Below the pieces are notes generated by a model, which did not search any database, was not told the DNA's origin, and saw nothing but the letters and a program-made list of their open reading frames with translations. Below, one piece after another: positions 35,449-37,268 of a stretch of DNA of 46,532 nt. Within the stretch, counting starts at the first letter, position 1. Every line of letters starts with the position of its first letter. The DNA is from Lentisphaerota bacterium (GTDB lineage: Bacteria > Verrucomicrobiota > Lentisphaeria > Victivallales > UBA1829). The DNA lies in the NCBI GenBank assembly GCA_015061845.1, contig SUVT01000010.1:1-46532 (forward strand). Direction: 5' to 3'. The position numbers and the translations under genes were made by a program.

Positions 35449-36174
35449 ATGAAAACTGTCATCTATTACAACGTGACCACCGGAGAATCTTTCGATCAGA
35501 ACGGTTCTCTCAGATCCTCTAACAACCCTTTTTCTGCCTCTTACGGCGAACGGCGTACCTTTGAATGGCATCTCATCACATCTGCTGATTCCAATCAGAA
35601 TGTCAGCGAATGGGAACACTGGACCGACTGGGATATCACACCGCAGTCTGCTGTCATTGCTGCCGATGATAACTATCTCGCCGCATATCCGGGATATTTG
35701 AAAGAATCCGTCTCAGGAAATACAAATGCCATTGCCCTGACAATGAAAGACTTCCCGGAAAGTATTGCACCTGCTGGAAATATCCGTATTTTCAAGCCGG
35801 ATCATTCATTTCTTATTTTTCCCTACACAGCAGTCAATACTCTGTCCGATGGTTTCGTTCTGGCTGTGGAACTTTCTGATATTGAATTGGAAACAGGAAC
35901 AAGAATCGATATTTTGGAATCTCCTCTCGTTTCCGCCGTTATGAATACAAACTCCTCTGTCGAACAGGGTATTTTTTCTTTTGATCTCATACTCAACAGC
36001 GTGCGTCTGACTGAAAAAATGGAATATTCTGATATTGAACTTCTGACTGCAAAAGGTCTGGAACTTTGTGTTTCCGGCGTTGATCCTGATACATCGGAAC
36101 AAACAGTTATCCTGCGCGGTCAGGTTCCGTTTGTAATAAATAATGTTCTTACTCCATTGGATTTATTCAAATAA
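35449..36174 (+). CDS. Orphan protein of unknown function, beta-rich
   Basis: 241 residues with no signal peptide or membrane helix. Composition is polar and beta-rich with low Lys/Arg (FEWHLITSADSNQNVSEWEHWTDWD, NIRIFKPDHSFLIFPYTAVN, FSFDLILNSVRLTEKMEY). The two halves may be related beta domains. The start ATG has AAGGAG 8 bases upstream. The feel is that of a phage tail or other structural protein, but no motif proves it and no phage genes adjoin. It is immediately followed by three promoter-hairpin units. Confidence 0.7.
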   Translation: MKTVIYYNVTTGESFDQNGSLRSSNNPFSASYGERRTFEWHLITSADSNQNVSEWEHWTDWDITPQSAVIAADDNYLAAYPGYLKESVSGNTNAIALTMKDFPESIAPAGNIRIFKPDHSFLIFPYTAVNTLSDGFVLAVELSDIELETGTRIDILESPLVSAVMNTNSSVEQGIFSFDLILNSVRLTEKMEYSDIELLTAKGLELCVSGVDPDTSEQTVILRGQVPFVINNVLTPLDLFK

Positions 36175-36189
36175 AGTTTTCTGAAACAC

Positions 36190-36264
36190 TTGACTTTTTA
36201 CCCTTTTCAGATTATATTACAATGTTGCCAGTATTTGAGATTGGAAATACTGGCAACATTTTTT
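36190..36264 (+). ncRNA. Promoter plus hairpin mini-RNA, family 1, unit 1
   Basis: TTGACT (36190-36195), 17 bases, TATATT (36213-36218), then at once a perfect 16-bp stem AATGTTGCCAGTATTT (36221-36236)/36245-36260 with loop GAGATTGG and a T-run. The predicted transcript of about 40 nt is nearly all terminator hairpin. It also lies just after the stop of the 241-residue gene and could end its message. Confidence 0.6.
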
Positions 36265-36384
36265 TAGTTTTTATATGCTATTTTCAAGATTTTTTATATA
36301 CTAAAAATACTGCTTTTTTGTTTTTCACTCTACCAAATAATTCATTTTTTATAACATTCTGTTATCCTATTTTCCTGATTAAAT

Positions 36385-36484
36385 TTGACTTTTATTACTT
36401 AATTAAATTTGACTTTTATTACTTTTCATGTTATATTACAATGTTGCCAGTATTTGAGATTGGAAATACTGGCAACATTTTTTT
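36385..36484 (+). ncRNA. Promoter plus hairpin mini-RNA, family 1, unit 2
   Basis: The stem (36440-36455/36464-36479), loop and T-run are identical to unit 1. The promoter TTGACT (36409-36414), 17 bases, TATATT (36432-36437) is preceded by a duplicated copy of its own -35 segment (AATTAAATTTGACTTTTATTACTT at 36377-36424, in two copies 24 bases apart), so only the second -35 has correct spacing. Confidence 0.6.
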
Positions 36485-36566
36485 TATTTTTCATAGCTAA
36501 AATTTCATAACTAAAAGGATTATTTTTTTTAGTTTACTGAATCTTAAATTATTTTCTTAATTAAAT

Positions 36567-36641
36567 TTGACTTTTATTACTTTTCATGTTATATTACAAT
36601 GTTGCCAGTATTTGAGATTGGAAATACTGGCAACATTTTTT
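36567..36641 (+). ncRNA. Promoter plus hairpin mini-RNA, family 1, unit 3
   Basis: TTGACT (36567-36572), 17 bases, TATATT (36590-36595), then the identical stem (36598-36613/36622-36637) and T-run. Identity with unit 2 covers the whole promoter; AT-rich DNA between units is not conserved. Convergent with gmhB, whose stop lies 67 bases downstream. Confidence 0.6.
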
Positions 36642-36707: not shown

Positions 36708-37268
36708 TTATTTATCCAGCAACACTTTCACTGCTTCCAATATTTCCGGAGCAGTTTTATATGGCTTATCCAAAGGCTTCAACTCCTGTTCCGTACCATG
36801 TCCGGTCAAAACAAGGGCACCTGTCTGACAGCCTGCTGCAAAACCTGATTCCAAATCAGAAAGTTTATCACCGATAATAAAAGATTTTTCACAATCAATA
36901 TCAAAATCTTTCTTTGCCGCAAGAAGAAGTCCCGGTTTCGGTTTCCGGCAATCGCAGTCAATGGCAAATTCCGGTACAGAACCTTTCTTATGATGCGGAC
37001 AGTAATACCAGCCGGCAGGAAGAGGCGCTCCGGCATCTGTCAAACACTTTTCAATATGTTTTTCCACCTTTTTCAGATCCGCTTCCGTAAAATAACCGCG
37101 GGCAATCCCGGATTGATTGGAAACAACAACAATATCATATCCGGCATTTTTGATCATCCGGAAGGCTTCCGCTGTTCCTTTGCAGAGAACGACCTGTTCC
37201 GGTGAACTCAGATAATTGGCATCTTCAATGATCACTCCGTCACGATCAAGAAAAAATACTTTCTTCAT
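36708..37268 (-). CDS. gmhB: D-glycero-beta-D-manno-heptose-1,7-bisphosphate 7-phosphatase
   Basis: 186 residues, full length for GmhB, a HAD-IIIA phosphatase of ADP-heptose synthesis. Nucleophile motif FLDRDGVI (Asp8, Asp10), VVSNQSGIARGYF, the structural zinc site Cys90-His92-Cys105-Cys107 (YYCPHHKKG, CDCRKPKPG) and IIGDKLSD at the end are all present. It overlaps the recF stop by ATGA and closes the dnaN-recF-gmhB operon. gmhA is encoded 2.4 kb away on the other strand, so the heptose genes flank dnaN-recF. Confidence 0.93.
   Translation of the reverse strand: MKKVFFLDRDGVIIEDANYLSSPEQVVLCKGTAEAFRMIKNAGYDIVVVSNQSGIARGYFTEADLKKVEKHIEKCLTDAGAPLPAGWYYCPHHKKGSVPEFAIDCDCRKPKPGLLLAAKKDFDIDCEKSFIIGDKLSDLESGFAAGCQTGALVLTGHGTEQELKPLDKPYKTAPEILEAVKVLLDK

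Follow-up and report, generated by a model that had tools for sequence, protein, structure and literature searches.

Promoter-hairpin units in Lentisphaeria: a dispersed family of putative minimal self-terminating transcription units

The tandem array between convergent genes

Three direct copies of a short promoter-hairpin unit (W1-W3) lie in the window, the 46,532-nucleotide stretch of DNA analysed here as a whole, where the array is flanked by convergent genes: an open reading frame ending at 36174 and a GmhB-like gene on the minus strand ending at 36708. The features of this region are as follows.

35449-36174, plus strand: upstream co-directional gene (MKTVIYYNVTTG...), no Pfam match, with its stop 15 nt before W1
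36190-36267, plus strand: unit W1, with the -35 at 36190-36195, the -10 at 36213-36218 and the hairpin at 36221-36260, then a T-run; covariance model match of 98 bits
36385-36390, plus strand: spare -35 (TTGACT), from an imperfect 24-bp tandem duplication (TTAATTAAATTTGACTTTTATTAC) immediately upstream of W2
36409-36486, plus strand: unit W2, with the -35 at 36409-36414, the -10 at 36432-36437 and the hairpin at 36440-36479, then a T-run; covariance model match of 99 bits
36567-36644, plus strand: unit W3, with the -35 at 36567-36572, the -10 at 36590-36595 and the hairpin at 36598-36637, then a T-run; covariance model match of 98 bits; recent tandem duplicate of W2
36708-37268, minus strand: HAD-type phosphatase (GmhB-like), convergent and downstream

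Each copy has the same order of parts, TTGACT, 17 nt, TATATT, AC, AATGTTGCCAGTATTT-GAGATTGG-AAATACTGGCAACATT and a T-run, with a hairpin that starts at the third base after the -10 and pairs over 16 bp, without mismatch, around the 8-nt loop GAGATTGG. W1-W3 were the sole sites in a terminator scan, with 0.1 expected in shuffles, and the hairpin folds as RNA at -22.7 kcal/mol (z = -6.6), or at -20.2 kcal/mol when cut back to the expected RNA start. Coordinates, scan and folding thus agree with the first-pass annotation, which had described three tandem units of TTGACT-17-TATATT with a hairpin and T-run. A 92-aa open reading frame at 36222-36500 was rejected as protein-coding; it begins within the W1 stem, extends through W2 and is a mechanical ORF.

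W2 and W3 arose by recent tandem duplication: they share the same promoter spacer, and a 134-nt repeat comprising upstream DNA and unit is 84% alike between them, compared with 68% for W1. Because of this duplication, the window copies alone say little about selection, and the joint selection on promoter and hairpin that had been proposed from these three copies gains little support from them, while copies elsewhere do reveal joint conservation. The description of the hairpin as a perfect 16-bp stem is likewise accurate for W1-W3 but not universal, since the two copies near ileS in the same genome each carry one C/A mismatch in the stem.

Distribution, promoter and termination

A search for further units, suggested in the first pass, found them both in the window's own genome and in relatives. 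The own genome (G000; 3.2 Mb in 169 contigs) contains seven: the three in the window, two near ileS on contig C8, and one each on C93 and C3. About 50 units, a count that takes in near-identical tandem copies, were read in eight genomes of gut Lentisphaeria from three genera of family f1 and one genus of family f4. A first covariance model located units in the same-genus relative G001 and in the g4 genomes G005, G013 and G020 of the same family; a second, broader model added copies in G019 as well as G193 and G194 (family f4), leaving 190 of the 198 class members searched without units. All genomes are draft assemblies, so copy numbers are minima and absences are soft. Seven units occur in G001, decayed ones included, and two in a public relative from roe deer cecum, 'Lentisphaeria bacterium RGIG3871', at a spacing equal to that on G001 contig C117. 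Covariance-model searches returned no units from G002, which belongs to the same genus as G000, and the family is therefore not essential. The units are intergenic and vary in orientation to genes, occur singly or in direct tandem, include tandem duplicates and decayed copies, and have stems of 13-19 bp. From their sequences, we interpret them as minimal transcription units that terminate themselves and form a dispersed, multi-copy family, in which conservation lies in the stem rather than the loop.

Promoter and hairpin travel together, as the first pass had supposed: the 39 units compared keep the -10 and the TTG of the -35, whereas the middle of the spacer is near random apart from T-rich stretches. 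Judged by its motif, the unit promoter is the ordinary sigma70-type (housekeeping) promoter of the genome. The pattern TTGA-N17..20-TATATTAC occurs at 87 sites in G000, versus 0 and 2 for the reversed control. Among 30 promoter loci that were fetched, the non-unit sites stand mostly ahead of ordinary ORFs or tRNA genes and have a stem of at most 6 bp behind the promoter; a hairpin at the promoter start site occurs in the units only. Hairpins that have outlived their promoter, which the first pass regarded as a mark of plain terminators or a palindromic repeat, are a minority (G001 C42b and G005 C323) against the 39 units read with both parts, and G001 C210 is degenerate in both.

A T-run of at least five follows the hairpin in 26 of the 39 units (67%), compared with 14% of nearby windows. 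All genus-g1 units among the 39 have a T-run; about one-third of the units, all outside g1 and including several copies in G005, G013, G019 and G020, are without a good one. At C8, C93 and C3 of G000 the neighbouring gene on the promoter side points away from the unit, so the T-run there can only end the unit's own transcript. With no co-directional upstream gene at these three loci, the hairpin is not a simple gene terminator, in line with the original proposal, although W1 may also act as a terminator for the ORF that ends at 36174. Given a standard promoter and a T-run far above chance after the hairpin, the hairpin transcript of about 40 nt suggested at first is a fair prediction. The units have the two sequence signals by which sRNA genes are recognized, an own promoter and an intrinsic terminator.

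Stem covariation and change between genomes

In an alignment of 28 units, standard pairs fill 99.1% of the pair cells. The covariation score reaches 0.592, against 0.169 when shuffled and a maximum of 0.11 when slid. Covariation of the stem, named in the first pass as a check, is thus strong, with both sides changed in 12 of the 16 pairs, though it is partly a DNA-level property. Within the hairpin, the stem core TGYCNGT varies least, and it is kept across genera. The loops measure 6-9 nt, mostly 8, and differ among copies, also within one genome. In G001 C42 the stem has stayed as it is, but the loop, CCAAGCTC, reads much like the window loop GAGATTGG in reverse complement, and the common loop GAGCACG is inverted or nearly so in G005 C151, C68, C323 and C313. 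Such variation within genomes and repeated inversion argue against the loop-mediated antisense role that had been considered, as does the occurrence of TCCAATCTC in the window solely in the three loops. A CsrA-type decoy was also rejected, the loop GGA being absent from GAGCACG (G005), CCAAGCTC (G001 C42) and GATGCAGA (G000 C93).

The pairing in these stems is close to pure Watson-Crick. Only 8 of 622 pairs in 39 units are G.U and 3 are mismatched, compared with 67 G.U and 30 mismatched among 666 pairs in 48 other terminator-like hairpins that were picked from the same loci by a simple rule (Fisher 3e-13; the units share ancestry, and the p-value is only a guide). Furthermore, stems in family f1 mostly begin 1-3 nt after the -10, the palindrome reaching several bases upstream of the expected +1; those in f4 begin 5-7 nt after it, at about +1. 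The near-absence of G.U pairs and the upstream extension of the f1 palindrome are better explained at the DNA level. Perfect arms with inverted spacers are a published signature of polymerase template switching (PMC8794818, PMC8604942), and the near-pure Watson-Crick stems, inverted loops and stem starts upstream of the RNA start suggest that stem perfection is probably maintained in part, and loops inverted, by DNA template switching from arm to arm. The units also share simultaneous compensating changes with template-switch hairpins (PMC8794818, PMC8604942); however, template switching is a mutational process rather than an element, and it accounts for the perfect stems but not for the conserved promoter. 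Since covariation and stem perfection are partly a property of the DNA, they are not by themselves proof of RNA function or selection.

Comparison of G000 with G001 offers a further view of conservation. The two genomes have in common the ileS pair, the C3/C174 unit and the window array, the two sides of which lie in G001 on separate contigs, C210 (one unit) and C42 (two units). At ileS, both genomes carry two units in the same place, and each copy shows a single base difference in the -10 and hairpin while promoter spacers, flanks and intergenic DNA have diverged heavily. This vertical retention amid diverged surroundings points to purifying selection on the promoter core and hairpin at the ileS locus. 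The single difference is the same C/A in both copies, which implies concerted change of the two copies. Stem similarity in genus g4 averages 0.81 within a genome versus 0.57 between congeners, with none of 5000 permutations as large, a pattern that suggests lineage-specific amplification or concerted evolution.

Candidate roles and neighbouring elements

We tentatively favour, short of calling it probable, the reading that these are multi-copy minimal transcription units whose hairpin RNA would serve a putative partner through its stem. The standard sigma70-type promoter would fire straight into a perfect hairpin, usually with a T-run behind it; RNA polymerase would start at or within the hairpin base and stop about 40 nt later, releasing a closed hairpin RNA with a U tail. 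A putative partner could then bind the double-stranded stem in trans, and the copies would jointly constitute a multi-copy RNA ligand or decoy. The more ambitious proposal, a new Lentisphaeria class of dedicated RNA genes that would be among the smallest known (one terminator-like hairpin of about 40 nt, many copies per genome, and a species-specific stem co-evolving with the putative partner), seems to us doubtful.

Several LhrC sibling RNA genes occur per genome, each with its own promoter and terminator, and the LhrC RNAs pair with targets via loops or single strands, whereas the unit loops are variable or inverted and the predicted RNA is a hairpin only. Listeria LhrC serves as an example of a multi-copy sRNA family (PMC13350326). 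In style, the family looks like a relative of known small repeated DNA elements. The pneumococcal SPRITE is described as a dispersed intergenic repeat of 30 copies with an 18-bp duplex and then a U-rich tract, and as a presumed non-autonomous mobile element for which no clean empty sites were found (PMC3049150). By the features described, the units are similar: they too are intergenic and multi-copy, have a long duplex (13-19 bp) and a T-run (five or more in 67%), and lack a clean empty site, although the hosts belong to different phyla. The SPRITE model as described there has AAAA/TTTT ends and mentions no promoter, in contrast to the conserved standard promoter of the units (PMC3049150). Correia elements and other MITEs are likewise small, dispersed and promoter-carrying (sigma70-like; PMC10969869), but they have terminal inverted repeats and target duplications, none of which were found in the units, and the unit promoter fires into the hairpin rather than outward toward genes. 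At the unit borders no repeats were seen (the left border is the -35, the right border the hairpin end), nor was there a clean empty site. Matches to annotated phages or viral contigs were absent, and a phage or virus origin was rejected; Rfam 15 gave no match to the region at gathering score, only chance-level eukaryotic or Wolbachia matches. Literature searches on promoter-hairpin repeats, or on repeats in Lentisphaerae or Victivallis, returned nothing on this element.

The strongest competing explanation is a non-autonomous mobile repeat of the SPRITE/REP kind that spreads as DNA and has no host role, with the hairpin, and perhaps its transcription, needed for propagation; we regard this as a possible account but an uncertain one. 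It would fit the intergenic placement, varied orientation, tandem duplicates and decayed copies, the patchy presence (8 of 198 class members, with none in same-genus G002), and the g4 stems that are alike within a genome and unlike between congeners, as after lineage-specific amplification. A dead insertion, however, would not be expected to keep promoter core and hairpin in both sister genomes at ileS while its flanks diverge, and no clean empty site, terminal repeat or target duplication was found. The specific form of this idea based on REPIN/RAYT is disfavoured: REPINs comprise two inverted REPs moved by RAYT (PMC8049555), whereas the units, alone or in direct tandem, include a promoter and lack inverted REP pairs, and five of the eight carriers (G000, G001, G013, G193 and G194) have no PF01797, the Y1/RAYT transposase family, an absence that is not absolute at 78-94% completeness.

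Other alternatives give the units a local task. As a cis-acting roadblock or insulator, a unit would fire constantly and terminate at once, stopping read-through from neighbouring genes, consistent with the pointing of each G000 array (window, C8, C93 and C3) at the 3' end of the next gene. Outside g1, however, units at G193 C54, G019 C131, G020 C21 and G194 C441 point to the start of a co-directional gene (orientations there were read from ORF lists and codon-position GC), and a roadblock would not need a conserved stem core; we consider it unlikely. The overlap of the dyad with +1, the conserved half-site TGYCNGT and the near-absence of G.U pairs could instead suit a protein operator over the start site, the promoter being a regulated start and the hairpin RNA incidental. 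Usual operators are smaller than 16-bp arms around an 8-bp spacer, an operator would not require perfect complementarity at variable positions as well, and in g1 no gene follows within the unit, which together make this quite improbable. Plain intrinsic terminators of upstream genes with a chance promoter are the least credible of these accounts, a very remote prospect: the stop of a co-directional gene does precede W1 by 15 nt, and W1 combines a strong hairpin with a T-run, but almost every copy in the eight genomes has the promoter and C8, C93 and C3 have no co-directional upstream gene to terminate.

If transcribed, the units would be RNA genes of nearly the simplest conceivable kind and would offer a clear test case for the role of a free terminator hairpin in the cell. 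If mobile, they would resemble SPRITE/REP repeats in style while carrying a promoter, in a phylum for which our literature search found no such repeats described. In either case, perfect stems probably kept by DNA-level template switching (Watson-Crick only, with inverted loops) beside a conserved promoter in eight genomes are a caution for any RNA-function claim built on covariation alone.

Other repeats occupy some of the same intergenic regions. The G001 unit C117c is destroyed in G000, where an inverted-repeat element of about 200 bp (GAGGCTGTTGCAAAACCTG...CAGGTTTTGCAACAGCCTC) replaces the -10 and hairpin; the G000 contigs C70 and C45 share about 120 bases at their ends and look adjacent, with the GAGGCTGTTGCAAAACCTG element exactly at the position of the -10 and hairpin of the G001 unit. 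On G000 C3 (approx. 1590-1760 of the fetched locus), an inverted-repeat element of about 170 bp (GAGGTAATTTCAAAAGTC...GACTTTTGAAATTGCCTC) lies directly upstream of the unit with a CTTT duplication; G001 C174 is an empty site for this element, and the same element ends also start close to the terminus of G001 contig C210. The gmhB and ileS loci of G002 have no clean empty site, their intergenic DNA being wholly different, and carry another dispersed repeat of about 200 bp (GCTGTTTCCCATA..GGTTGGTAAATC...GGGAACAGAGCT or similar) where the sister species have units. Downstream of the degenerate unit on G001 C210, a promoter-like TTGACTTTTTATCAAAACGGTGTATATTA precedes two T-rich stretches that resemble hairpins within a long leader, an arrangement that looks like an attenuator leader.
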